Below are positions 5,771 through 53,831 of a DNA stretch of 64,000 nt, piece by piece; position 1 is the stretch's first letter, and every line of letters starts with the position of its first letter. The stretch lies in assembly GCF_001879715.1 (NCBI RefSeq), contig NZ_MNBW01000002.1:124001-188000 (forward strand), written 5' to 3'. A model generated the notes under the pieces. That model did no database searches, was not told the origin of the DNA, and saw only the letters and a list, made by a program, of their open reading frames with translations. Source of the stretch: Nioella nitratireducens. Its GTDB lineage: Bacteria; Pseudomonadota; Alphaproteobacteria; Rhodobacterales; Rhodobacteraceae. Made by a program: the position numbers and the translations under genes.

Positions 5771-7468
5771 TCAGAGCAGGCTGACCCCATCGTCGTCCAC
5801 AGCCTGCGCGGCGGGTTTCGGCGCAGGGTTCGGATTGGTGATCGGCACCTTGGGCAAGGGTTGGCCCGGCATGGCGACGGTGGGCTGCGCCATGGCGAAA
5901 TTGGGGGGGGGGTTCGGGACCGGCAATTCGCCCCGCAATTCCAGCAACAAGGTGCGGTGGTCGGCCACGTGGTTCATGGCATTGGCCACGCCACCGCGCA
6001 TCTTGGTCAGGTATTGTCCCCAGATATCGGAGGGCAAGGTCATGTTTCGCAACAAATGTGGCGAGGCATAGTCGGTGTCATAGACCCGCTTGCCCAGCAT
6101 CACCGCCTGATAGACGCCATAGTCAAAGAGCGAGTCAAACGCGAGGTCGTAGGGCTGCGGCAGGGTATAGCGCCAGAGGTCGAGGTTCGCAGCAAGACTG
6201 TCCGGCACCTCCAGCTCTTCCCGCGCGTCGATCCAGTATTGGCTGTCGGTGCGGTTGTTCAGGGCATAGTGGAGGCAGATGAAATCGCGCACCTCGTCAT
6301 AAAGATTGCCGGTGATCTTGTTGTAGCGGTCGCGCAATGGCGCAGGAAAATCGCTGTCGGGGAAGTAGGAAATCAGCCATCGGACGCCCATGTCGATCAT
6401 GTGGATCGCGGTGGATTCGAGCGGTTCGATAAAGCCCCCCGACAGACCGATGGCGACCACGTTCTTGACCCACGCATTGCGGTTGCGGCCCACCCGCATC
6501 GGGATCACGCGCGGTTCGACCCCGTTCCAGGTGTCGCCCAGATGCGCCACGAATTCATCCCGCGCCTCTTCATCCGTGCGGTGCGCGGTCGAGTAAACGT
6601 AGCCCGTGCCAATCCGGTTAAAGAGCGGCACCCGCCAGACCCAGCCCGCCCCAAGCGCATAGGACCGGGTCAGCGAGGGTATCTTGTCGGGGTCGGGATG
6701 GGGGATCTGCACCGCCATGGCGCGATCGTTGGCGAGGTATTTCGAATAAGAGATGAACGGCTCTTTCAACACCTCGTTGATGATGACGCCCTTGAAGCCG
6801 GTGCAATCAATCACAAGCTCGGTCTCGTGCCGACCGCCGCGTTTCAATTGCAGCGCGGTGACGTAGCCGTTTTCATCCTGTTCGACATGCACCACGTCGT
6901 CGCGCACATGAACCACGCCCTTTTCGGTGCAGAGCCGCTGCATCAGCCCCGAGAATTTTCCAGCGTCCAGGTGATAGGCATGGCCGATCGACATCGAATA
7001 GGGCTTTTCGCCCAAGGCACGCGGCCCCTTGCAGGCCCGGCCCAGATCGACGGCAGGCGAGTAGACTTGGGTAAAGTCGAGATTACCGGCCCCGTGCTGA
7101 AGAAAATAGTAGCCCAGATCCACACCATGGATCGGGTGGGCCCGCGCAAAGGGGTTTACGAACTCGATCGGATGTCCGGCCTTGTCGACGTTCCAGTTCG
7201 AGAACAGAACGCCCAGTTTGAACGAGGCATTGCAGGTCTTGAAGAATTCGGGTTCCGAAACACCCCCCATCCGCAGCGTGCGCGGCATCCCCGGAACGGT
7301 GGCCTCGCCGACGCCCACGGTCGGCACATTCGGTGACTCGATCAGGGTAACGGTCTTGCCCTGCCCCTGTGCCGCCCGCGTGCCGAAATAGCTTTGCAGG
7401 ATCAGCGCGGCCATCCACCCGGCCGTGCCGCCCCCGACAATGGTGATATTCTTGATCGGATCGCCCAA
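5771..7468 (-). CDS. Flavin-dependent tryptophan halogenase family protein
   Basis: 565 residues from a TTG start. FAD-binding GGGTAG is at 12-17, the catalytic Lys in NASFK is about residue 84, WVWRVP matches the WxWxIP halogenase signature, and EPLEST carries the second catalytic Glu at about 351. These enzymes use FADH2, O2 and halide to halogenate tryptophan or other indoles. A Pro-rich tail ends the protein. TTG 7468 follows GGGAGAAGG at good spacing; an ATG at 7498 is possible but would put a dyad into the coding region. No biosynthetic genes surround it, so the substrate is open. Confidence 0.85.
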   Translation of the reverse strand: MGDPIKNITIVGGGTAGWMAALILQSYFGTRAAQGQGKTVTLIESPNVPTVGVGEATVPGMPRTLRMGGVSEPEFFKTCNASFKLGVLFSNWNVDKAGHPIEFVNPFARAHPIHGVDLGYYFLQHGAGNLDFTQVYSPAVDLGRACKGPRALGEKPYSMSIGHAYHLDAGKFSGLMQRLCTEKGVVHVRDDVVHVEQDENGYVTALQLKRGGRHETELVIDCTGFKGVIINEVLKEPFISYSKYLANDRAMAVQIPHPDPDKIPSLTRSYALGAGWVWRVPLFNRIGTGYVYSTAHRTDEEARDEFVAHLGDTWNGVEPRVIPMRVGRNRNAWVKNVVAIGLSGGFIEPLESTAIHMIDMGVRWLISYFPDSDFPAPLRDRYNKITGNLYDEVRDFICLHYALNNRTDSQYWIDAREELEVPDSLAANLDLWRYTLPQPYDLAFDSLFDYGVYQAVMLGKRVYDTDYASPHLLRNMTLPSDIWGQYLTKMRGGVANAMNHVADHRTLLLELRGELPVPNPPPNFAMAQPTVAMPGQPLPKVPITNPNPAPKPAAQAVDDDGVSLL

Positions 7469-7481
7469 CGCCCTTCTCCCC

Positions 7482-7500
7482 GCTTGACCAAACGTCAAGC
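7482..7500. promoter_or_regulatory. Perfect dyad just upstream of the halogenase start
   Basis: GCTTGAC and GTCAAGC form a perfect 7-base inverted repeat around a 5-base spacer. It sits directly upstream of the GGGAGAAGG ribosome site of the halogenase gene when the TTG at 7468 is used. It could be a repressor operator or an mRNA hairpin next to the ribosome site. Confidence 0.35.
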
Positions 7501-11053: not shown

Positions 11054-12133
11054 TTAATCCGACAGGGCCGCCGCCCCCGCACGCGACATCGGGCCGATCA
11101 CCCCGTCGATGGCACCGGGATACAGCCCACGCTCTTGCAAGATCACTTGAAACGCCATCGCGGTTGCCCGGTCCCAAGGCGGCACGCGGCCACCGACCCG
11201 GCCCCGCATCTCGTCCAGATCGACATCCCCGGTTTCCAACGCCTGCACGTAAAGCTCTGCCGCGCGCTGCGGATCCGCCTCGACCCCGCGCCCGCGCTCA
11301 TACAGGAACCCGAGCGCCGCAACCGCCTCTGGCAGGCCCTCGTCCATCGCCCGTTGCGTCCAGCGAAACTGCAAGTCGGGGTCTCCGGTTCCCGGCCCGT
11401 CGAGTTCGGAATAGATCCGCGCCAGGTCCAGCACGGCTTCGATGTTGCCCTGCTCGGCGGCCATAGACAGGTAGCGCGCCGCTTCGTCCCGGTCAGGAAT
11501 ACCGAGGGCCGCATCCGCTCCACCCGGAATGCCATCGCCGGTCAGGTAGGTCTGTCCCAGCCGGAACTGCGCAAAATGATAGCCGCCATCCGCCGCCTGC
11601 CGCATCAGCGCGACCATCCGCTCGGTATCGCGCGGCACCCCCGCGCCAAGGCGATAGAGCAACCCAAGGGTCATTTGCCCGGCCGGGTCGCCGGCCTCTG
11701 CGGCAGCGCGGTAATAGACGGCTGCCGCGTCGGCATCGCGCCGCAACGGCCCGATCCCGAACAGGTGATAGTCCCCAAGCCGCGTATTGGCCGCCGCCAA
11801 CCCGCCTTGGGCGGCGGCTTCAAAGGCTGCAACCGCCTCGTCATGATCACCGTCAAGCTGCCGGATCGCCCCGATCGTGTACAGAACCTCGGGCACGTTG
11901 CTGCCCCCAGCGACCGCCTGTTCGCAAGACGGCGCAGCCTCTTGCAGGGCCGCGATCTGGGCCTCCTGCGCCTCGGGGCTGATTGGAACGCCCGCGTCGG
12001 GGGGGCCGGCCGTTTCAAGGCAAAGCGCCGCCGCAGCCTCGGCTTCGGTCTGGGCGGCAACGGCAAGAGGGGCTGTGGTCAACAAAAGGGCCAGCCCGAA
12101 ACGGGCCGCTGGAATGGTTTTGGCAGAGAACAT
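11054..12133 (-). CDS. Secreted Sel1-repeat protein with C-terminal peptidoglycan-binding-like motif
   Basis: 359 residues. An N-terminal signal peptide (hydrophobic LALLLTTAPLAVAAQ) precedes several Sel1-like helical repeats of about 36 residues (for example AANTRLGDYHLFGIGPLR, AGQMTLGLLYRLGAGV, FAQFRLGQTYLTGDG). The C-terminal LYPGAIDGVIGPMSRAG matches the PG_binding_1 repeat. It is probably a periplasmic scaffold that contacts the cell wall. The ATG at 12133 gives the signal peptide; the frame continues upstream to 12466 but that overlaps the divergent gene. Confidence 0.78.
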   Translation of the reverse strand: MFSAKTIPAARFGLALLLTTAPLAVAAQTEAEAAAALCLETAGPPDAGVPISPEAQEAQIAALQEAAPSCEQAVAGGSNVPEVLYTIGAIRQLDGDHDEAVAAFEAAAQGGLAAANTRLGDYHLFGIGPLRRDADAAAVYYRAAAEAGDPAGQMTLGLLYRLGAGVPRDTERMVALMRQAADGGYHFAQFRLGQTYLTGDGIPGGADAALGIPDRDEAARYLSMAAEQGNIEAVLDLARIYSELDGPGTGDPDLQFRWTQRAMDEGLPEAVAALGFLYERGRGVEADPQRAAELYVQALETGDVDLDEMRGRVGGRVPPWDRATAMAFQVILQERGLYPGAIDGVIGPMSRAGAAALSD

Positions 12134-12348
12134 ATCGAAGACCGCCTTGTGACTGAAATACAACGCAAAGACTAGCCAATCACAGGCCTGCCTGTCGACA
12201 GCCGATCCCCTGCCGTTTCGCAATAATACCACATTCGCGGCTGGCGAATGCCGCAAGCCTGTGCAAGCCTCTGCCCGGACAATAAAATCCATATGGACCT
12301 GAGGCAGGGCGCCCGGACAGGACCGGGACGGACAAGGTGACCCGAGAT

Positions 12349-13785
12349 ATGCGCGATTCTGGTACGACTGACAGCGTCCTCGTCGTTGATCTGGACGGCA
12401 CCCTCCTGCGGTCGGACATGCTGTTCGAATGCTTCTGGGCGGCCTTGTCCAAGGATTGGCAGGCACCGGTCACTGCCGCGCGCGCCCTTAAAAAGGGCAT
12501 ACCGGCGCTCAAGCGGGCCATGGCCGACAGCGCCTGCCCTGACGTGGCGCACCTTCCTTACAACCCCGATGTCATTGCCCATATCGAAGGCTGGCGCGCC
12601 AAGGGCGGGCGGGTCGCGCTGGTGACGGCCAGCGACCAAACCCTCGCCGACCGCATCGCCACACATCTGGGCCTTTTCGACGAGGTCTTCGGCACCACCC
12701 CCGAGGTGAACCTCAAGGGCAGCCGCAAAGCCGCTTTCCTTGCCGATCACTATGGAGCGGGCAGCTTTGTCTACATGGGCGACAGCGCCGCCGATCTGGC
12801 CGTCTGGCAACGCTCGCGGGCGGCGATCACCGTGGGCGCAAGCGGCGGTTTCCGGGCCAGGGTCGAGGCCGTCAACGGCGAGGTGTCCCATCTCAGCCCG
12901 CCCGAGCCGCTGGCATGGCCGATCCTGAAGGCCATGCGCCCACATCAATGGTTGAAGAACATCCTGATCTTCGTTCCGGTGCTGGCCAGCCATTCCGTGA
13001 CCGGGCTCAGCCTGCTGCAATGTTTGGTGGCCTTTCTGGCCTTCGGTCTGGTCGCTTCGTCCGGCTACGTGCTGAACGACCTGCTCGATCTGGACCCCGA
13101 CCGCGCTCACGCACGCAAGCGTAACCGCCCGCTGGCATCGGGCCGGTTGCAGGTGCCCGCGGGCACCGCGCTGTTCCCCGCGCTGCTGATGCTTGGTCTG
13201 GCAACCGCCGCGGCGTTGGGTCCAAGCTTTCTCGGCGTCATCGCGTTCTACTTCACCATGACCCTCAGCTATTCACTGTGGCTCAAACGCAAGGTGATCG
13301 TGGATATCTGCGTGTTGGCCGGGCTCTATACGCTGCGCATCGTGGCGGGCAGCATGGCCACCGCCGTGCCGCTGTCGATCTGGCTGCTGGCGTTTTCGAT
13401 GTTCTTCTTCTTTGCCCTTGCGGCCGTCAAGCGACAGGCCGAGTTGGTGCATGTGCAGGCCACTGGACAAACCAAGGCCGCCGGGCGCGGTTACGGGCTG
13501 GACGACCTGCCCATCGTGACCCAGATCGCCACCAGTTCCGGCCTGACCTCGGTGCTGGTTCTGGCGCTCTATATCAACTCGCCAGAGGTGCTGATGCACT
13601 ATCGCCAACCTGTGCTGCTGTGGGGGGTTTGCGTGTTGCTTCTGTTCTGGATCACGCGGGTGGTTTTCATCACCCATCAGGGCAAGATGACAGACGACCC
13701 GCTGGTCTTTGCAGTGACCGATCGCACCAGCCAGGTATCCTTCGCGGTGATCGCCGCCCTCGGGCTGGGGGCGGCATTCCTATGA
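12349..13785 (+). CDS. HAD phosphatase-UbiA prenyltransferase fusion (decaprenyl-phosphate phosphoribosyltransferase-like)
   Basis: 478 residues. The N-terminal HAD domain (about 8-190) has VVDLDGTLL with D14 and D16, a VTAS motif II and a GDSAADL motif. The C-terminal UbiA domain is polytopic and carries NDxxDxxxDxxxxxKxxRP (about 243-262) for polyprenyl-phosphate and Mg binding. By family and context it should join phosphoribosyl pyrophosphate to a polyprenyl phosphate, as Mycobacterium Rv3806c does, with the HAD part possibly removing the 5-phosphate. ATG 12349 follows AAGGTG; a GTG at 12337 is an alternative. First gene of a four-gene operon. Confidence 0.82.
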   Translation: MRDSGTTDSVLVVDLDGTLLRSDMLFECFWAALSKDWQAPVTAARALKKGIPALKRAMADSACPDVAHLPYNPDVIAHIEGWRAKGGRVALVTASDQTLADRIATHLGLFDEVFGTTPEVNLKGSRKAAFLADHYGAGSFVYMGDSAADLAVWQRSRAAITVGASGGFRARVEAVNGEVSHLSPPEPLAWPILKAMRPHQWLKNILIFVPVLASHSVTGLSLLQCLVAFLAFGLVASSGYVLNDLLDLDPDRAHARKRNRPLASGRLQVPAGTALFPALLMLGLATAAALGPSFLGVIAFYFTMTLSYSLWLKRKVIVDICVLAGLYTLRIVAGSMATAVPLSIWLLAFSMFFFFALAAVKRQAELVHVQATGQTKAAGRGYGLDDLPIVTQIATSSGLTSVLVLALYINSPEVLMHYRQPVLLWGVCVLLLFWITRVVFITHQGKMTDDPLVFAVTDRTSQVSFAVIAALGLGAAFL

Positions 13786-14210
13786 CGGGCCTATCGCTGG
13801 CGCTGCGTTACGCGCTCTTTGCCGGGATCGCGATGATCGCCAATCTCGGCACCCAACGGCTGGTGCTGGCCTTTGGCGAGACGGCCTTTGTCTTTGCCAC
13901 GGCGGTCGGGGCGGGCACTCTGGTGGGGCTGGTGGTGAAATACCTGCTCGACAAGCGCTGGATTTTCTACGACGCCTCGACAGGGCTCAGGGCGCATGGC
14001 CGCAAGTTCGCCCTTTACACAGCCATGGGGCTGGTGACGACCTGCATCTTCTGGGGCAGCGAAACGGCCTTTTGGCTGATCTGGGGCACCGACCCGATGC
14101 GAGAGCTTGGGGCCGTTCTGGGCCTGATGGTGGGCTACATGACCAAGTATTTGCTGGATCGCCGTTTCGTCTTCACCGATGGTCGCGGCATCGCGGAGGG
14201 GGCACGATGA
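13782..14210 (+). CDS. GtrA family membrane protein
   Basis: 142 residues with four hydrophobic segments and the GtrA-like patterns KYLLDKRWIF (near 46-55) and KYLLDRRFVF (near 123-132). GtrA proteins are associated with moving or presenting polyprenyl-linked sugars across the membrane. In mycobacteria the GtrA protein Rv3789 lies next to dprE1. Both ends overlap neighbours by ATGA, so it is an integral part of this operon. Confidence 0.85.
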   Translation: MTGLSLALRYALFAGIAMIANLGTQRLVLAFGETAFVFATAVGAGTLVGLVVKYLLDKRWIFYDASTGLRAHGRKFALYTAMGLVTTCIFWGSETAFWLIWGTDPMRELGAVLGLMVGYMTKYLLDRRFVFTDGRGIAEGAR

Positions 14211-15529
14211 CCGTTTCAGGATGGGGCAATTTCCCGAAACTCGACGCCCGGCTGAGCGCACCGCGCCACGAGGCCGCCCTTGCCGCACTGGTGGCCGAGG
14301 GGCGCGCCATCGCGCGTGGAAACGGCCGGTCCTATGGCGACAGCGCGGTAAGCGTGGCCAACACAATCGACATGCGCTGCTTCGACCGGATGCTGGGCTT
14401 TGACCCCGCGACCGGGCAGCTGGTGGCCGAGGCCGGGGTGATGCTGGCCGATGTGATCGACAGCTTCCTGCCCCGTGGCTGGTTTCCCATGGTGACGCCC
14501 GGCACCAAGCTGATCACGCTTGGCGGCGCCATCGCGGCAGACGTGCACGGCAAGAACCACCATGTCGATGGCAGCTTTCGCGCCTGCGTGGACTGGATCG
14601 ACGTAATGGGCCCCGACGGCGCCGTCACCCGCTGTTCCCGCGACGAAAACGCCGTGCTCTTTGGCTGGACCTTGGGCGGCATGGGCCTGACCGGCGTGAT
14701 TCTGCGCTGCGCGATCCGCCTGCGCCCGGTGAAATCCGGCTGGATACGACAACAGATGATCCCGGCCGAAAATCTCGACGCCGTGATCACCGCCTTTGAA
14801 GACAACATGGACGCGACCTATTCCGTCGCGTGGATCGACTGCGCCGCCAAGGGGGACAGGCTTGGGCGGTCTCTGGTGATGCTGGGCGAACATGCCGACC
14901 CGGGCGAGGTGCCTGCGCGCCACCGGGCAACGCCTTTCCACGCCCCCCGCCACCGTAAGATCACCTTCCCGATGAACGCCCCGTCCTTTGCGCTCAATCC
15001 GCTGACGGTGCGGGCCTTCAATGCGCTTTATTACTGGAACGGCGCGCGGCAAAAGGGGCAATCCATCGTCGACTGGGACGGCTATTTCTACCCGCTTGAC
15101 GCGATCCTGAAATGGAACCGTCTCTATGGACGCAAGGGGTTCATGCAATTCCAATGCGTGCTGCCGCAGGACACGGCGCGCGATGGCCTGAACCGCCTGC
15201 TGACCGCCATTTCCGAAAGCGGGCAAGCCTCGTTCCTGTCGGTCCTGAAACGCTTCGGCCCGCAGGACAGCCCCTTTTCCTTCCCGATGGAAGGCTACAC
15301 GCTGGCCCTCGATTTCCCACGCCATGCCCGCGCCATCGCCCTGATGCCGGACCTGGACGCGATCACGCTCGACCATGGCGGGCGCTACTACCTCGCCAAG
15401 GATTCTCGCCTTCCCGCCGATACTTTCACCGCCGCCGACCCCCGCGCAGCCGATTTCGCGGCATGGCGCCGGGACAATGGCCTCGCCGACGCCTTCGCCT
15501 CGGCCCAATCCGAAAGGCTCCACCTGTGA
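14207..15529 (+). CDS. FAD-dependent oxidase, DprE1-like (decaprenylphosphoryl-ribose 2-oxidase homologue)
   Basis: 440 residues of the VAO/FAD_binding_4 fold. GNGRSYGDS (38-46) and HGKNHHVDGSF (114-124) match the FAD-binding motifs of DprE1 closely, and the length is close to mycobacterial DprE1. DprE1 oxidises the ribose 2-OH of polyprenylphosphoryl-ribose to a keto intermediate. It sits directly before a DprE2-like reductase and after UbiA and GtrA genes, which is the mycobacterial set. The ATG overlaps the GtrA stop, and the stop overlaps the next GTG. Confidence 0.85.
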   Translation: MTVSGWGNFPKLDARLSAPRHEAALAALVAEGRAIARGNGRSYGDSAVSVANTIDMRCFDRMLGFDPATGQLVAEAGVMLADVIDSFLPRGWFPMVTPGTKLITLGGAIAADVHGKNHHVDGSFRACVDWIDVMGPDGAVTRCSRDENAVLFGWTLGGMGLTGVILRCAIRLRPVKSGWIRQQMIPAENLDAVITAFEDNMDATYSVAWIDCAAKGDRLGRSLVMLGEHADPGEVPARHRATPFHAPRHRKITFPMNAPSFALNPLTVRAFNALYYWNGARQKGQSIVDWDGYFYPLDAILKWNRLYGRKGFMQFQCVLPQDTARDGLNRLLTAISESGQASFLSVLKRFGPQDSPFSFPMEGYTLALDFPRHARAIALMPDLDAITLDHGGRYYLAKDSRLPADTFTAADPRAADFAAWRRDNGLADAFASAQSERLHL

Positions 15530-16260
15530 CGTCCCCCGTTCTGATCCTGGGCGCGCGATCCGACATCGCCCGCGCCACCGCCCGTGCCTTTGCTGCCGAA
15601 GGACACCCGATCCAGCTTGCCGCCCGCCATGCCGCGGACTTGCAAAACGACAAGGCCGATCTGGAAACGCGCTACAATGTCGAGGTCACCTTGCATGATT
15701 TCGACGTGTTGGAGGTCGACCGCCACGATGCCTTTGTCGATGGCCTGCCCGTTCTGCCCGGCATCGCCGTCTGCGCGGTCGGCAAGATGGGCGAGCAAGC
15801 GGACAACGAGACAGACACCGCCGCCGCCGTGGCCGTTCTGCGGTCGAATTTCGAGGGGCCGGCAATCCTGTTTGGGGTGCTGGCCAATCGCTTCGCCGAA
15901 CGGGGGGCGGGCACGCTGGTGGGAATCAGTTCGGTGGCCGGCGACCGGGGCCGCGCGTCCAATTATGTCTACGGATCGGCCAAGGCTGGCTTCACCGCTT
16001 TCCTGTCGGGGCTGCGTAACCGGCTTTGCAAGCGAAATGTGCACGTGGTGACGGTGAAACCGGGCTTCGTGAACACGGCCATGACGGCGCACCTGGACCT
16101 GCCCAAAAAGCTGACCGCAGACCCCGCCGAAGTTGCCACCGCAATCGTTGCCGCCGTCAATAAATCTCGCAATATCATTTACGTGCGCCCGATCTGGTGG
16201 GCGGTGATGATGGTGATCCGGAACATCCCGGAAGCGATCTTCAAGAAAACAAGCCTCTGA
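15526..16260 (+). CDS. SDR family reductase, DprE2-like
   Basis: 244 residues, short-chain dehydrogenase fold. The nucleotide-binding loop is LGARSDIARATA (about 8-19), the catalytic ISSVAG and YGSAK motifs are present, and the C-terminal IYVRPIWWAVMMVIRNIP segment is hydrophobic, as in DprE2. DprE2 reduces the keto intermediate to polyprenylphosphoryl-arabinose. The start is GTG overlapping the DprE1-like stop (GTGA); no ATG fits. It is the last gene of the operon. Confidence 0.83.
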   Translation: MTSPVLILGARSDIARATARAFAAEGHPIQLAARHAADLQNDKADLETRYNVEVTLHDFDVLEVDRHDAFVDGLPVLPGIAVCAVGKMGEQADNETDTAAAVAVLRSNFEGPAILFGVLANRFAERGAGTLVGISSVAGDRGRASNYVYGSAKAGFTAFLSGLRNRLCKRNVHVVTVKPGFVNTAMTAHLDLPKKLTADPAEVATAIVAAVNKSRNIIYVRPIWWAVMMVIRNIPEAIFKKTSL

Positions 16261-16411: not shown

Positions 16412-17950
16412 ATGAACCTGCTTACGCAGCGGGGCGTTGACAATCGGACCGAATTTCTTGAATCGCCTGCAGCCGTCATTGCGACGCTGGCGGTCTCTGC
16501 CGTTGTTTGCGCCAGCCTACTGACACTGACCGTGACCCGGGTTATTCCCGCCATCCGCCTCGCCGGGGTGGACCAGGTGGAACCCGCCCGCGTCGACATT
16601 CCACAAACCAGCCTTGGTGCCCTTCCGATGACGGAAGCCGAGCCCACCGATTTGGCCGCGACCGACCCGGCACCACGGCGCGCTGCGCCGGCAACGCTGC
16701 CGCAGATGCGCCCGGATCGGCAGGTCGCCCTGTCGGACGCCGCCACGCAACCGGCCGCCCCCGCGCCCACCGTGATCGCGGGCCGCCCGCCGGTCGCATC
16801 GACCCCGCGCCCCGATCACATCGTGGCCCTTGCCGCAGCGCGGCAAACCCAACCGGACGTCACCGCCATCGCAACGGCGCGCCCGGCACAGCGCCCGGCG
16901 ACCGCCACCGCGACTGTCGAGGCCCCCACCGAAGCAATCGCAGAGCCGGTGATCGAGGTTGCTGACATCTCGCCGCTCGCCACCGCCGTCAGCCCGCGCC
17001 CCGCCGCGCGCCCGGCCGATCTGGACACCACGCCGTCGGCCAGTTTCGTGACTCGCGCGCCGGACGCCACGGAAAATGTCGTGTTGGCTTCGGCCCCCGC
17101 AGCGGCCCCGGTGGCACAGCCCCAGACAACGTTTGCACCGAACTTCGATCGCAGCGCGAATGCCTGCTCGCGCCGTCTGGCCCGCGAAATCCCGCGCCGT
17201 CCGGGCAATGCGCAGGACGGCTCTGTCTTCGCGGCCTCGCTCCAGAACACCTCGGGCACCACCCGCGACGCTGCGGTCGCGCGAGAGGTGCTTCGCGGCA
17301 ATGTTCCCGACTTCCTGCGGGACCTTGCCCCTGTGACCTTTACCGGCGTTCTGCCCAACGGCCGCAGCGCCCAGATCACCATCTGTGTCACCCCCGACTA
17401 CCTTGCCGTCGGCGATGACCGCGACTTCATGCGCGTGCCGCTTGGGTTGGCCGCCGCCGGTCAGATCGCGGAATCGTTCAACATGATGCTGCCGACAACC
17501 CGCATGGTGGATGCCATCTATGCGCAGGCCGACCTGCGCCTGTCGCCCTCGCCGATGACGCCGGGCGCGCAAATGTCGAGCACGTCCTATTTCATGCAGC
17601 ATAACGCCACGGTCGAGCAGCAACGGCACAATGCCGGGGGCCGTCTGGGGATGCTGGTGTCGGGCCACAAGAAGGATCTTGTCCTGACCAACCGGCTCTC
17701 CTCGCACCCCGGTCGCGTCGCGATTTACGGATGGCACCGCCCCGGCGGCAACCCGATTCAGCCGCTGTCGACCGTGCACGGTGCCGAATACGCCGATTAC
17801 AGCCATGGTATCCGGCTGGTCAGCCGCACGGCCTTTGTCAACGGTCAGGCCGTCGATCTGCGCGACCTGCTGATGGATGGCACCTATGCCAGCCTGCTGA
17901 ACACCGAAGGGCCGATCGGCCGCCCCGCAATCCAGATCGCATCGCGCTGA
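16412..17950 (+). CDS. Membrane-anchored Ala/Pro-rich protein with a conserved but unnamed C-terminal domain
   Basis: 512 residues. One N-terminal transmembrane helix (AAVIATLAVSAVVCASLLTL, about 20-40) is followed by about 200 residues of low-complexity Ala/Pro/Thr sequence that may span the periplasm. The C-terminal 260 residues form a folded domain with conserved-looking segments such as SGHKKDLVLTNRL, VAIYGWHRPGG and YADYSHGIRLVSR. I recall similar unnamed domains in other bacteria but cannot assign a function. The ATG at 16412 has GAGGG 8 bases upstream; ATG 16397 has none. Confidence 0.72.
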   Translation: MNLLTQRGVDNRTEFLESPAAVIATLAVSAVVCASLLTLTVTRVIPAIRLAGVDQVEPARVDIPQTSLGALPMTEAEPTDLAATDPAPRRAAPATLPQMRPDRQVALSDAATQPAAPAPTVIAGRPPVASTPRPDHIVALAAARQTQPDVTAIATARPAQRPATATATVEAPTEAIAEPVIEVADISPLATAVSPRPAARPADLDTTPSASFVTRAPDATENVVLASAPAAAPVAQPQTTFAPNFDRSANACSRRLAREIPRRPGNAQDGSVFAASLQNTSGTTRDAAVAREVLRGNVPDFLRDLAPVTFTGVLPNGRSAQITICVTPDYLAVGDDRDFMRVPLGLAAAGQIAESFNMMLPTTRMVDAIYAQADLRLSPSPMTPGAQMSSTSYFMQHNATVEQQRHNAGGRLGMLVSGHKKDLVLTNRLSSHPGRVAIYGWHRPGGNPIQPLSTVHGAEYADYSHGIRLVSRTAFVNGQAVDLRDLLMDGTYASLLNTEGPIGRPAIQIASR

Positions 17951-18041: not shown

Positions 18042-19037
18042 TCAGTTCACATCGTGAAAGCAACGGAACCCGAGGTGATAGTTGCGATGGCTCGACGGTG
18101 ACAACACCTGACTGCCATGCCAGAACGGTGCCCGCCACCGGGCCCAATGCTCATGCGCGCGCACCGTGTCCCATATGAACCAACTGCCCTTCATTTCGGT
18201 GACCCCAAGTGTGGTCGAGCCACGGCTGGCCATCTGGTCCTCGCTGAGGGGCAGGTTCATATGCTCGGCGGCGTTGCCGTCGATGTCATAGGCGCCAAGT
18301 GGGCTGTGACATTGCGGAAACGAGCCCGCCGGATAGGTGTTCGACCCGCAGCCGGTGAAGCTGCCGCCATTGCAGCCTGCCGATTTGTGGCTGCCCGTCG
18401 CGCACACGCCCGAGCGCCACTGGCCAATCGAATACAGGTCGCTCTGAAACGCCCAGTGGGCGTTGTGCCACGCCCGCATCGCCTGTTGGCTGCCAAGCTG
18501 GAACTGGTAGTCGGGCGGCAACAGCGCCCCGGCCGCCGCCCCTTCCCATTCATGGGCGTCCCCGATCCGGCCCCCTTCGGCCGCACACAGCGCCGCCGCC
18601 TCCGAGGCGCGCACCCATGTCACGGGGTAGACCATCGGGATGTTGGGATATTCGAACATGTCGATACACACCTCGGCATCCTCGGGGCTTTCGGTCGCCG
18701 GGTCGTAAAGCGGCGCGCGATAGGGGCCGCCGCAAATCCTCTCCCACCGGGAATTGCGATAGCTCTGCTGCACATTGGCCACCGATCCACCGATCCGGGC
18801 CGCCGCCTCTTCGGGCGTCATCGGGTGGCGCGTCACCGCAGGGTTGCCTTGCCCGATATAGGATGACCCGGCAAAGATGTCGCGGATGCGGGCAATCTCG
18901 GCAGCCGAGACCCCGCGCACCTGCTGCATTTGCCGGAACATCTGTTCATTGAGGTCTTGCAGGCTTTGGGCCGCCCCCGCCCCGGCGCTCATGACGCCGA
19001 TCAAAAGGGCCACGCACGCTCGGGTGAGATATCTCAT
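18042..19037 (-). CDS. Secreted SUMF1/formylglycine-generating-enzyme-fold protein
   Basis: 331 residues with a signal peptide (CVALLIGVMSAGAGAAQ). The SUMF1 fold is shown by VCIDMFEYPN, PVTWVRASEAAALCAAEGG, AHEWEGAAAG, GAYDIDGNAAEHMNL and the terminal HRNYHLGFRCF. True formylglycine-generating enzymes use a Cys pair near the end; here only the last Cys is in place, so sulfatase activation is unlikely and a binding or other role is inferred. Many other cysteines suggest disulfides. It starts 21 bases after the 584-residue gene and is probably co-transcribed with it. Confidence 0.75.
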   Translation of the reverse strand: MRYLTRACVALLIGVMSAGAGAAQSLQDLNEQMFRQMQQVRGVSAAEIARIRDIFAGSSYIGQGNPAVTRHPMTPEEAAARIGGSVANVQQSYRNSRWERICGGPYRAPLYDPATESPEDAEVCIDMFEYPNIPMVYPVTWVRASEAAALCAAEGGRIGDAHEWEGAAAGALLPPDYQFQLGSQQAMRAWHNAHWAFQSDLYSIGQWRSGVCATGSHKSAGCNGGSFTGCGSNTYPAGSFPQCHSPLGAYDIDGNAAEHMNLPLSEDQMASRGSTTLGVTEMKGSWFIWDTVRAHEHWARWRAPFWHGSQVLSPSSHRNYHLGFRCFHDVN

Positions 19038-51028: not shown

Positions 51029-51727
51029 TCACCAGTGCCGACCGCGCCCCCCCGAGACGTTGTGCCCCCAATAATCCCAGTTGTCCCAATCGGGATTGTC
51101 GTTCGTCACTTCGTCATCTGGCGGGCCGTCGATGTAGTAGAACCCGTCCTGCCCCGAAGGCGAGGCGTTGTTGTTGTAGACGAACGAATTCGGCAGGTCC
51201 GCAACAAAGGCGACCTGTCCCGCGAAGCGGGGGCGCGTGACGGTGAAATTGGTGAACTCCTGCGCGCTCAGGCCGACACTGAACGCCGGGTTATAGGGCA
51301 GGAAGGTTTCGATCATCAGCAACCGGTCGCCGAAAGACATGATCGGGATGCGGTCGATGAAGTCAGGAAAATCGCTCGCGCGGATATAGGTCAACCCGTC
51401 TGTGCCATGCGACCAGTCGATCCGATAGCCGCCATCCTGCCGGGTGATCTGCGTCACCCGCAGGGACGACCCGGCGGTGTTGCGGGTCAGGAACTGAAAC
51501 ACATCCGCCAGCCCCTCGATATCGGTGCTGGCGATTTCAGTGGTGCGGCGCGACAGGACGTCTGCCACGGCATAGGTCGCCTTGACCGAGGTGCTGTAGG
51601 TGCGGAACGCGTCGAAGAAGACGAAGCTGGCCACGAAAACCCACGCCAGGATCGGGGTGATGATCACCGCCTCGATCGCGACCGATGCCCCGTCTTCCTG
51701 CCAGAACCGTTTGATCAATTTTCGCAT
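51029..51727 (-). CDS. TadE/TadG-type pseudopilin
   Basis: 232 residues. The prepilin-like N-terminus (WQEDGASVAIEAVIITPILAWVFVASFVFFDAF) with an acidic Asp-Gly-Ala-Ser motif and hydrophobic helix identifies the Tad pseudopilin group. The C-terminal ~170 residues form a periplasmic domain ending in aromatic Asp/Asn/Trp-rich sequence (NDNPDWDNWDYWGH). It sits with two related genes and is likely part of a tight-adherence pilus. Confidence 0.78.
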   Translation of the reverse strand: MRKLIKRFWQEDGASVAIEAVIITPILAWVFVASFVFFDAFRTYSTSVKATYAVADVLSRRTTEIASTDIEGLADVFQFLTRNTAGSSLRVTQITRQDGGYRIDWSHGTDGLTYIRASDFPDFIDRIPIMSFGDRLLMIETFLPYNPAFSVGLSAQEFTNFTVTRPRFAGQVAFVADLPNSFVYNNNASPSGQDGFYYIDGPPDDEVTNDNPDWDNWDYWGHNVSGGRGRHW

Positions 51728-51737
51728 CTTATGCCCC

Positions 51738-52271
51738 TCACGTCGGTTCGTTGACGAAGACGGTGGCGGCCATCAGGTGAATATCCCCCGCGTCGTCGCG
51801 CGTCAGGTTCAGGCCAAGTCCCGAGATCGGCAGGATGCGGTCAACCAGGGCACAGGCCCGGATCAGCATCAGCTCGTTGTCGGCCCCCGGATTGAAGGTA
51901 TTGGCCGGGTGCACCTCGTCATTGGCCTGATCGGCGCAGAGCGCATCATAGGACGGAAGGGCGTATGTATCCTGATTGATCACTTGCAGATCGAGACGCA
52001 GCATTTCGGTGCAATTGGGAATGAGGCTGGTGTTGCTGCAAATGTTCTCGGCGATCTGATCATGGGTCACCGTGATCCCGGAGGTCAGGCGCAGGTAGCG
52101 CACCGCGTTGTCGAGCGACCGCTCCAGCATCACCTGCCGGGTCAACAGCATCGCGGTTTCGAACGCTGCCACGAACAGGAAGATGACAATCGGGAAGACA
52201 ATCACGAATTCCACCGTCGCGTTGGCGGCGTCGCCCTTCAGAAAGGATCGGATACGGTTTTTTCCCCACAT
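51738..52271 (-). CDS. TadE family pseudopilin
   Basis: 177 residues. KGDAANATVEFVIVFPIVIFLFVAAFETAML is the TadE-like segment. The rest is a periplasmic domain with paired cysteines (NICSNTSLIPNC, ALCADQ, RACALVD). Gap to the next gene is 10 bases; the three genes are co-transcribed. TadE/F-type pseudopilins prime Flp pilus assembly. Confidence 0.82.
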   Translation of the reverse strand: MWGKNRIRSFLKGDAANATVEFVIVFPIVIFLFVAAFETAMLLTRQVMLERSLDNAVRYLRLTSGITVTHDQIAENICSNTSLIPNCTEMLRLDLQVINQDTYALPSYDALCADQANDEVHPANTFNPGADNELMLIRACALVDRILPISGLGLNLTRDDAGDIHLMAATVFVNEPT

Positions 52272-52280
52272 GGCGCGTCC

Positions 52281-53831
52281 CTACTGGATCAGCCGAAGCT
52301 GGTTGATCGAGGCGGCGATCGAGGCAAATGCCTCGCCGATCTCGATCCCCTCGGCATCGTAATAATGGGCTGGCGTGGTGGCGCATTGCTGCATCACGTC
52401 TTCGCCATGGGTCGGGGCCTCGAAGGCGACGGTAAACACGATGATCCCGGCGGCGTTGGCCTGATCGCAGATGCTCAGCAGGTTGGCATCCGCCGCGCTG
52501 GAACCGGCGTAAAGCTCGACCGCGTCATAGCGCAGGTCGTAGTAGTAGTTCCAATCCCCGGCCTCGTAGAAGAATTCCCCTGCAAGGGTGCGCGCCGTGT
52601 AGGTCGCCCAGAGTTCCGGCCACGGGATGGCTTCGGCATTGTTCCCGCCTTCGGGATAGTTCTGATAGCTGCGGTTGCTGTGCCAATAGTAGAGATCGTA
52701 GTTCGGCAGGTAGACCGAGATATGGTCGTTCGACGGGTCACGGAACACAGTTGACGGCCCGCGCTTGTATTCCTGCGCGATGTCATACTGGCTGGTGTTC
52801 TGGCCGTCCGTCATCAGGATGACGATCTTCAGCACCTCATCCTCGTCGTAGGAAAAGGGACGGCCCTGAAAATCGGTATCGACCGAACCGGCGGCAATCA
52901 GATTGGACACAGCAGGCTGCGCGGCCGGGTCCAGCAGGCCGACGCCCCATTTCATGCCAAGGTCAATCGCGGTGTTGCCATTGGCGTTCAGGCTATTGAC
53001 CAAGCTGTGCAGCGCATCGGCGTCATTGGACCAAGGCAGGATCGCCGCATAGTCGCTGGTCGGGCAGTGCGGGCTGCGGAAATAGCGATAGCTGTTGCGG
53101 TTGTTGTAGTCGAAATGCGCAATCCGTTCGATCGCGACACTCGGATCAATCGCGGTCTGAGAATAGTCCAGCGCGTCGAACCGCGTGCAGTTCGACGCGG
53201 AATGTTCGTCGGACAGCGTAAAGACGCTGGCCAGCGTGCTGCCCGCGTTGACCTGACTGTTGTAGGGAATGATCGAGATGGAGACCTGCTGTTCGTCCTG
53301 ATTGGCCTCGAGCACCGTGTCGATGAATTCGTTGGCCGCGTCCTGCATGTTGTCGATCTTGTGGTTCGAGCCCATGGAGCCGGAGATATCCAGCACCATC
53401 GAAATCTCGATATCCATGATCCGTTCCTCTGCCGTGCCACGCGCCGGCGAGGTCAGGGCGTAGACCCCGAACATGTTCATGAAATCGGCGCGCAGGTCCA
53501 TCTCGGCATAAGCCGACACCCGGCGATAGTTCAGCCCCTCGTCCACGTTGACGTTCAGGCGATAATTCTCCAGCCCCGAGGTGGCGAAATAGTCGATCAC
53601 CACCGTTTCGGGGTCTTCGGTCTGGTTCAGGGCAGCGGCGGCCAGCACGGCGCGGTCGAGCGTATACTGCAACTGGGTGCGCTGTGTCTCGTAGCGCATC
53701 ACGTCGATGGCAATGCCCCCGGCGGCCAGCATCAAGATGAACATCATCAGGGCGAAAATCGTCACCGTCCCGGTCTCGTCCCGCCAGAAGGTGGCACGGG
53801 CGGCGTGATCTGAGTCTGTCGCTCTGAACAT
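52281..53831 (-). CDS. TadG-type protein with von Willebrand A domain
   Basis: 516 residues. The N-terminal TadE/TadG segment (WRDETGTVTIFALMMFILMLAAGGIAIDVMRYE) is followed by a large VWA domain with the MIDAS motif DISGSMG (near 155-161) and ILMTDGQNT. TadG proteins are pilus-associated and surface-exposed. ATG 53831 is chosen; the frame upstream to 54053 is intergenic. First gene of this - strand cluster. Confidence 0.85.
   Translation of the reverse strand: MFRATDSDHAARATFWRDETGTVTIFALMMFILMLAAGGIAIDVMRYETQRTQLQYTLDRAVLAAAALNQTEDPETVVIDYFATSGLENYRLNVNVDEGLNYRRVSAYAEMDLRADFMNMFGVYALTSPARGTAEERIMDIEISMVLDISGSMGSNHKIDNMQDAANEFIDTVLEANQDEQQVSISIIPYNSQVNAGSTLASVFTLSDEHSASNCTRFDALDYSQTAIDPSVAIERIAHFDYNNRNSYRYFRSPHCPTSDYAAILPWSNDADALHSLVNSLNANGNTAIDLGMKWGVGLLDPAAQPAVSNLIAAGSVDTDFQGRPFSYDEDEVLKIVILMTDGQNTSQYDIAQEYKRGPSTVFRDPSNDHISVYLPNYDLYYWHSNRSYQNYPEGGNNAEAIPWPELWATYTARTLAGEFFYEAGDWNYYYDLRYDAVELYAGSSAADANLLSICDQANAAGIIVFTVAFEAPTHGEDVMQQCATTPAHYYDAEGIEIGEAFASIAASINQLRLIQ

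Follow-up and report, generated by a model that had tools for sequence, protein, structure and literature searches.

A putative polyprenyl-phosphoryl-arabinose operon in Nioella nitratireducens and a candidate GT87 transferase for its product

D-Arabinofuranose is best known from the mycobacterial wall, and its pathway is targeted by drugs. Harvey et al. are said to have described D-arabinosylation of Pseudomonas type IV pilins in 2011. In its accessible parts, the paper of Kelly et al. 2024 on a fused phosphatase-synthase reports DprE1/E2 homologues in candidate arabinose systems; it also gives the Pseudomonas pilin system a phosphoribosyltransferase of the same family, with a P. syringae protein that carries a C-terminal phosphatase domain (PMC11127046). 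The noeCHOP genes of Azorhizobium have been tied to arabinosylation, as far as the accessible text goes (PMC2443382). Here, we describe a four-gene operon on the forward strand of a 64,000-nucleotide stretch of Nioella nitratireducens DNA (the window, whose positions are used throughout). The genes, at 12349-16260, encode a HAD-UbiA fusion, GtrA, a DprE1-like oxidase and a DprE2-like reductase, and the operon probably makes a polyprenyl-phosphoryl-beta-D-arabinofuranose donor. The donor pathway is of a known kind, preceded as it is by noeCHOP in Azorhizobium and by the HAD-UbiA synthase that Kelly et al. described (PMC11127046); what is new is a specific candidate transferase and a two-form operon pattern across the family. 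Among the titles and abstracts listed in our literature searches, mostly without subscription papers, none dealt with an operon of this type in Rhodobacteraceae or with GT87 acting as its partner.

Gene content and key residues of the operon

A sequence-only reading of the window had described four overlapping genes of this content, and coordinates, overlaps and domains all agree with it (Table 1). Every junction is a four-nucleotide start/stop overlap (ATGA, ATGA and GTGA, in order), and the HAD, UbiA, GtrA, FAD_binding_4 and adh_short domains each score above their Pfam cut-offs. The HAD-UbiA open reading frame (ORF) has an alternative GTG start at 12337. The G+C content is 0.643 for the operon and 0.640 for the window. 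Best NCBIfam E-values across the four proteins range from 2e-51 to 1e-181, and because they are so low and the set recurs in relatives, chance is excluded for this combination.

The UbiA domain falls outside the ubiquinone and haem O clades, either of which would have spoken against the pathway. The fusion protein scores 604 bits with PRK08238 (cut-off 351), followed by decaprenyl-phosphate phosphoribosyltransferase at 162 bits, against 36 bits for the ubiquinone profile UbiA_proteo and 47 for haem O synthase. Its closest sequence in the PDB is the mycobacterial decaprenyl-phosphate phosphoribosyltransferase 8j8j (E 2.5e-30). A genome search with PF01040 finds two other UbiA genes at 202 and 198 bits, compared with 91 for that of the operon. 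Across 13 aligned sequences, residues N243, D244, D247, D251 and R362 do not vary and E365 hardly does, and the ND--D---D and R--E spacing is identical to that of Citrobacter ORF15. According to the accessible text on ORF15, N247, D248, D251, D255, R366 and E369 were mutated; the first four proved important, and alanine mutants of R366 and E369 stayed active (PMC11127046). The HAD nucleophile motif of the fusion reads D14-L-D-G-T, which gives the donor module a phosphatase by sequence (D14-x-DGT). For the flippase of the three-component system of Kelly et al., the operon offers, by profile, a candidate of the GtrA type and not a MATE protein. The role of the GtrA-type protein Rv3789 is itself disputed between flippase and anchor in the accessible part of one account (PMC7389260).

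By profile, both redox enzymes fall where the sequence-only reading had put them, beside DprE1 and DprE2. DprE1 is the best profile for the oxidase at 382 bits, with the runner-up at 41, and the closest PDB sequence is DprE1 (E 2e-76; 38% identity over 436 residues). We compared 14 positions of Mycobacterium tuberculosis DprE1, whose choice and roles (e.g. of Lys418 and Cys387) are our assumption. The oxidase keeps 11 of them (R58, Y60, H132, K134, W230, Q334, Q336, K367, F369, D389 and K418) and differs at three (C387 to A367, N385 to T365 and Y314 to F294). The reductase scores 353 bits with PRK07102, then 188 with DprE2, is closest in the PDB to DprE2 (E 1.4e-29), and has the SDR residues S136, Y149 and K153, invariant in an alignment of seven. 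The operon thus contains a DprE1/DprE2-type pair with key residues, the three listed DprE1 positions deviating.

Profiles, PDB matches to the mycobacterial counterparts (for the three proteins other than GtrA) and retained residues support the polyprenyl-phosphoryl-arabinose-like operon put forward by the earlier reading. From the homologues, we infer the donor steps up to GtrA transport. The fused HAD domain would take off the 5-phosphate, the DprE1-like enzyme would oxidise C2, and the DprE2-like enzyme would reduce it from the opposite face, converting ribose to arabinose. GtrA may then move the lipid-bound sugar over the inner membrane, a putative role also of its homologues. Finally, a GT-C glycosyltransferase would pass the arabinose to an envelope acceptor, for which the best candidate here is the genome's single GT87 gene.

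Two forms of the operon in the family

A DprE1 search (E 1e-20) of 198 family genomes found one gene each in 73. These divide into type A (20 genomes, the window included, 51-100% identity) and type B (53 genomes, 41-47% identity), and no genome has both operon types (hypergeometric p 0.0013, without ancestry correction). The loci read number 19 in type A, which is every one besides that of the window, and 21 out of 53 in type B. DprE1 and DprE2 are present in 19/19 of the former, and HAD-UbiA and GtrA in 18/19 each. In type B, an LPG_synthase_TM protein (PF03706, checked on one) precedes DprE1 in 20/21 loci, HAD-UbiA lies on the opposite strand in 17/21, and a cluster, tested on one member that proved to be RcpC/CpaB of the Tad pilus, is present in 14/21. 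Such an arrangement points to an exchanged flippase and possibly to a pilus as acceptor. In L066, a type-B locus, an 81-residue protein was considered as a pilin; its Pfam search was negative, so we claim no pilin there.

For wider sampling, a pattern scan of named genomes yielded at least 589 stretches with at least 585 relatives spanning several phyla, of which the best 80 were used. A midpoint-rooted DprE1 tree was built from 121 loci (120 distinct ones, since L036 and L092 are the same). In it, the 21 genes of type B group in a single clade with support 1.0. The smallest clade holding the 20 type-A genes also contains 33 from the best-80 set of named records, including Ancylobacter, Agrobacterium and sphingomonads.

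The phosphatase is not always fused. Among 20 loci with a UbiA ORF shorter than 380 residues (one of which, L153, is possibly cut by the end of its stretch), 14 have a separate HAD-motif protein of 191-220 residues encoded on the DprE1 strand. This suggests a place for the phosphatase in the pathway, and we regard the arrangement as a split form of the fusion. The only one of the 14 scanned, from L138, scores above the cut-offs of TIGR01490 and Pfam HAD; phmmer finds no similarity between the fused HAD domain of the window and the separate proteins. In three loci (L122, L125 and L132), the separate UbiA gene carries DLEGA as its HAD motif, so this HAD may be impaired and replaced.

An undecaprenyl-diphosphatase (UppP) gene stands ahead of DprE1-DprE2 in one Bradyrhizobium locus (L112:7019-7825), and in five other Bradyrhizobium loci a gene for a 268-residue protein with eight transmembrane helices occupies its position.

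A GT87 gene as candidate transferase

Of the Emb-like or GT-C partner for which the sequence-only reading proposed a search, only the second kind was found. Emb (PF04602) has no match in the genome (4.01 Mb in 84 contigs), with a positive control in C. glutamicum and the AftA, AftB and AftD profiles not searched, and PMT_2 (PF13231) has none either. GT87 (PF09594) matches a single gene at 111 bits (cut-off 25), located at G000:C2:44368-45612 (L214:9369-10613). Taken together, linkage, co-occurrence and fold in relatives tip the balance slightly towards this gene encoding the transferase that uses the arabinose donor.

The linkage comes from relatives. GT87 adjoins the operon in 6/121 loci read: L047, L076 (Solirhodobacter), L090 (Paenirhodobacter, with two), L093 (Erythrobacter), L100 (Novosphingobium) and L118 (Bradyrhizobium, opposite strand). 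In two genomes of a class sample (G254 and G404), DprE1 and a GT87 match are, by coordinates alone, 1 to 1.7 kb apart. The Nioella protein is homologous to the operon-linked ones (blastp E 1e-20 to 3e-9, with 23-28% of aligned positions identical). In a midpoint-rooted GT87 tree of 38 rows (30 family loci, each from a different genome out of 46 with a match, plus eight others that include two duplicates), it falls in the sister clade of the operon-linked proteins with a joint support of 0.97. Both clades include unlinked GT87s, and its own includes two from genomes without DprE1. An NCBIfam search assigned none of three GT87 proteins to a family, and a PDB sequence search gave no match for that of Nioella.

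Among 20 stretches fetched around GT87 matches, the gene was called in 15. It follows an ilvB relative in four (G197, G063, G185 and G082) and lies beside an aspS-like gene, often with carB, in nine, which come from seven type-B and two type-A genomes. The names aspS, carB, SCOT, CpaC, CpaF, recF and LysE were given by eye, and ilvB and ilvN are supported by NCBIfam at the Nioella locus.

GT87 occurs in 40 of the 73 family genomes with DprE1 and in 6 of the 125 without (Fisher p 1e-15), with 8/20 in type A and 32/53 in type B; the PMT_2 control gives 41/73 and 51/125 (p 0.04). In the class sample of 385 genomes, the counts are 21/54 and 42/331 (p 1e-5), or 19/52 and 42/328 (p 1e-4) after removal of five genomes of the same family. 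To account for ancestry, we used a midpoint-rooted tree of one gene, rpoB, for 100 of the 198 family genomes: 57 with DprE1 (16 type A and 41 type B, all that had a listed rpoB row), four of the six with GT87 only, and 39 others in table order. Raw GT87 counts on this tree are 29/57 with DprE1 and 4/43 without. A Pagel test of DprE1 and GT87 gives a likelihood ratio (LR) of 22.1 (p 0.0002) with several rates at their bounds, and 20.8 (p 0.0004) with unbounded rates. The control of DprE1 and PMT_2 gives LR 0.49 (p 0.97), GT87 and PMT_2 give p 0.71, and type B alone gives p 0.0009. A wider pair count stands at 17 to 0 (control 7 to 7). As its pairs are not path-disjoint, we give weight to the Pagel test and report the strict pairs below. 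The association is supported, with the model test in favour and the strictest pair test not yet.

Fold evidence was taken from an operon-linked homologue, L090:10072-11307, to which the Nioella GT87 is 28% identical. Its AlphaFold model, built from a 6-row alignment, has a mean predicted local distance difference test (pLDDT) score of 84.5 and a predicted template-modelling (pTM) score of 0.86. Foldseek matches the model to the mannosyltransferase PimE (9dm5; E 4e-5, template-modelling scores 0.68/0.72), and VIA-align superimposes 365 residues at a root-mean-square deviation of 3.8 (Z 26.8). AftC is, we assume, also a GT87 enzyme. The accessible description of AftC gives 433 residues, 10 helices and no C-terminal extension, and GT87 size, helices and acidic first-loop residues agree with it (PMC2610374). 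Two other sources, in their accessible parts, name only mannosyltransferases among GT87 activities (PMC8476585, PMC8522060).

Several observations weigh against GT87 as the partner of the operon. The Nioella gene is unlinked to it, lying directly after ilvB with ilvN nearby. The L090 model is nearest to mannosyl- and glucosyltransferases, ALG3 (Z 23.2) and ALG6 (19.5) following PimE, and arabinosyltransferases score far lower (AftB 10.5, EmbB 9.3 and AftA 8.3), so the fold is GT-C and PimE-like, not arabinose-specific. Six family genomes and 42 class genomes have GT87 without DprE1. Strict disjoint sister pairs number just 10, of which about 4.5 agree, 0.4 disagree and 5.2 tie (median p 0.125, underpowered); PMT_2 gives 3.3, 2.1 and 4.5 (p 1). 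Other loci carry unrelated GT-C-like neighbours.

The same donor operon could instead serve another GT-C enzyme, with GT87 using a different polyprenyl-phosphate sugar such as mannose, a possibility that we rate as considerable, if short of even. PimE is the closest solved relative of GT87, 33 of the 73 DprE1-bearing family genomes lack GT87, and genes for multi-transmembrane proteins without Pfam matches lie beside the operon, for example in L075, L107 and L141. Against this, GT87 stands beside the operon in six loci of several genera, and it follows the operon across genomes, which PMT_2 does not. The association has many exceptions, as it should if different GT-C families do this work in other genomes. 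In Heliomarina (L075:6443-7999), a 518-residue protein with 10 transmembrane helices and no Pfam or NCBIfam match is encoded between GtrA and DprE1 and may be a GT-C enzyme from a family not yet described; a search without positive control found no match to it in the Nioella genome. The idea that all GT-C-like operon neighbours form one family failed, as only one of 10 scanned has a Pfam match (PMT_2, L116).

Unlike the system of Kelly et al., the window has no GT-C transferase called in the same cluster, and apart from the UbiA gene none of its called genes encodes a GT-C-sized membrane protein (multi-transmembrane, at least 330 residues). Our gene caller is crude: GtrA of the window escaped it, as did GT87 in 5/20 fetched stretches.

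With GT87 retained as the preferred transferase, a broader picture can be offered, with rather less than even confidence. Rhodobacteraceae-type alphaproteobacteria may carry out a widespread, undescribed D-arabinosylation. Two donor-module forms, HAD-UbiA/GtrA/DprE1/DprE2 or an LPG-synthase-like flippase with divergent HAD-UbiA, often beside Tad-pilus genes, were not seen together in one genome. They would feed a mostly unlinked GT87 at recurrent housekeeping spots (after ilvB, or by aspS/carB) that places D-arabinofuranose on an envelope glycan or pilus. If the donor reading of the operon is right, many alphaproteobacteria make the same kind of lipid-linked donor as mycobacteria, with a DprE1 gene in 73/198 sampled family genomes. 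An arabinose-using GT87 branch would then exist outside Actinobacteria, and the flippase step could be filled by unrelated membrane families. Naming a candidate transferase makes the question directly testable.

Alternative products, neighbouring genes and known systems

It is improbable that the oxidase/reductase pair acts on another carbon or another lipid-linked sugar, yielding a different epimer or leaving ribose. The oxidase is just 38% identical to mycobacterial DprE1, and both enzymes fall short of the NCBI equivalog cut-offs (382/500 bits for NF053785 and 188/250 for NF053786), which tells against the arabinose donor and is why we use the names DprE1-like and DprE2-like. Pointing the other way, the oxidase retains the lysine, histidine, glutamines and tyrosine of what we take to be the DprE1 site. 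The accessible text of Kelly et al. bears on both sides: an epimerase alters the pentose added, which favours the alternative, and candidate arabinofuranose-glycan systems have DprE1/E2 homologues where xylofuranose ones have an ORF13 homologue, which favours arabinose (PMC11127046).

That the operon arabinosylates a lipo-chitooligosaccharide, like noeCHOP in Azorhizobium, can be dismissed with near certainty: a similar gene set exists within the same class (accessible text of PMC2443382) and the genome has one NodA-profile match (34 bits, Pfam cut-off 22; G000:C84:62241-62528, another contig than the operon), but no nod genes were recognised by eye among the window ORFs, as the sequence-only reading had said of this locus, and we rejected the match as a nod gene because it is a short, 177-residue GNAT-like protein beside recF-like and LysE-like genes (by eye; NodC not searched).

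The three genes downstream of the operon (Table 1) have relatives in 7 to 8 of 41 clustered loci. Elsewhere in the window, TadE-like and Tad/VWA pilus-assembly genes lie at 51738-53831 (- strand; PF07811 and PF13400), and 51029-51727 resembles them by eye without a Pfam match. A tryptophan-halogenase family protein (425 bits) is encoded at 5771-7498 (- strand).

Table 1. Positions of the operon genes and domains, their neighbours and the second operon form
Feature	Position	Strand	Evidence
Sel1-repeat protein, upstream neighbour	11054-12163	-	
HAD-UbiA fusion, predicted polyprenyl-phosphate 5-phosphoribosyltransferase with N-terminal phosphoribose phosphatase domain	12349-13785	+	PRK08238, PDB 8j8j, motif residues
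HAD phosphatase domain, residues 12-151	12382-12801	+	PF12710 45 bits (cut-off 27); D14-x-D-G-T
UbiA transferase domain, residues 217-446	12997-13686	+	PF01040 89 bits (cut-off 34)
GtrA, predicted flippase (or anchor) for lipid-linked sugar	13782-14210	+	NF037976 gtrA_1 173 bits (cut-off 50); PF04138 40 bits (cut-off 26)
DprE1-like FAD oxidase, predicted C2 oxidation of polyprenyl-phosphoryl-ribose	14207-15529	+	NF053785 382 bits (cut-off 500); FAD_binding_4
DprE2-like SDR reductase, predicted 2-keto reduction to arabinose	15526-16260	+	PRK07102 353 bits (cut-off 267); NF053786 188 bits (cut-off 250)
512-residue protein without Pfam family, downstream	16412-17950		
FGE-sulfatase-like protein, downstream	18042-19037		
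591-residue protein without family, after the FGE-sulfatase-like gene			
Second, diverged type-B operon: LPG_synthase_TM protein, DprE1, DprE2, divergent HAD-UbiA	loci L053-L073, e.g. L070:8312-12861		

The operon shares features with four described systems. With the Pseudomonas pilin system it has the phosphoribosyltransferase family in common, and no pilin gene was recognised beside the operon (no search for TfpW was made). The mycobacterial decaprenylphosphoryl-arabinose pathway has the same set of a UbiA phosphoribosyltransferase (Rv3806c), the GtrA-type Rv3789, DprE1 and DprE2. The phosphatase differs, being a fused HAD domain in the window and the unrelated Rv3807c in mycobacteria; in addition, no Emb transferase was found in the genome, and the oxidase, 38% identical to DprE1, aligns an alanine to Cys387. 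In Citrobacter youngae O1/O2, the accessible text describes, as in the window, a HAD phosphatase N-terminal to a UbiA-family polyprenyl phosphoribosyltransferase (ORF15), with lipid-linked ribose as the starting point, as we propose here (PMC11127046). Citrobacter combines these with a MATE flippase, a linked GT-C enzyme of family GT136 and, in O2, the ORF13 epimerase (PMC11127046), whereas the window has GtrA instead of MATE, both DprE1 and DprE2, and no recognised linked transferase. Although no nod genes were recognised in the window, the noeCHOP genes for Nod factor arabinosylation in Azorhizobium caulinodans are, in the accessible account, a like four-gene set in an alphaproteobacterium (PMC2443382), and in Ancylobacter (L080) the gene order is identical to that of the window operon.

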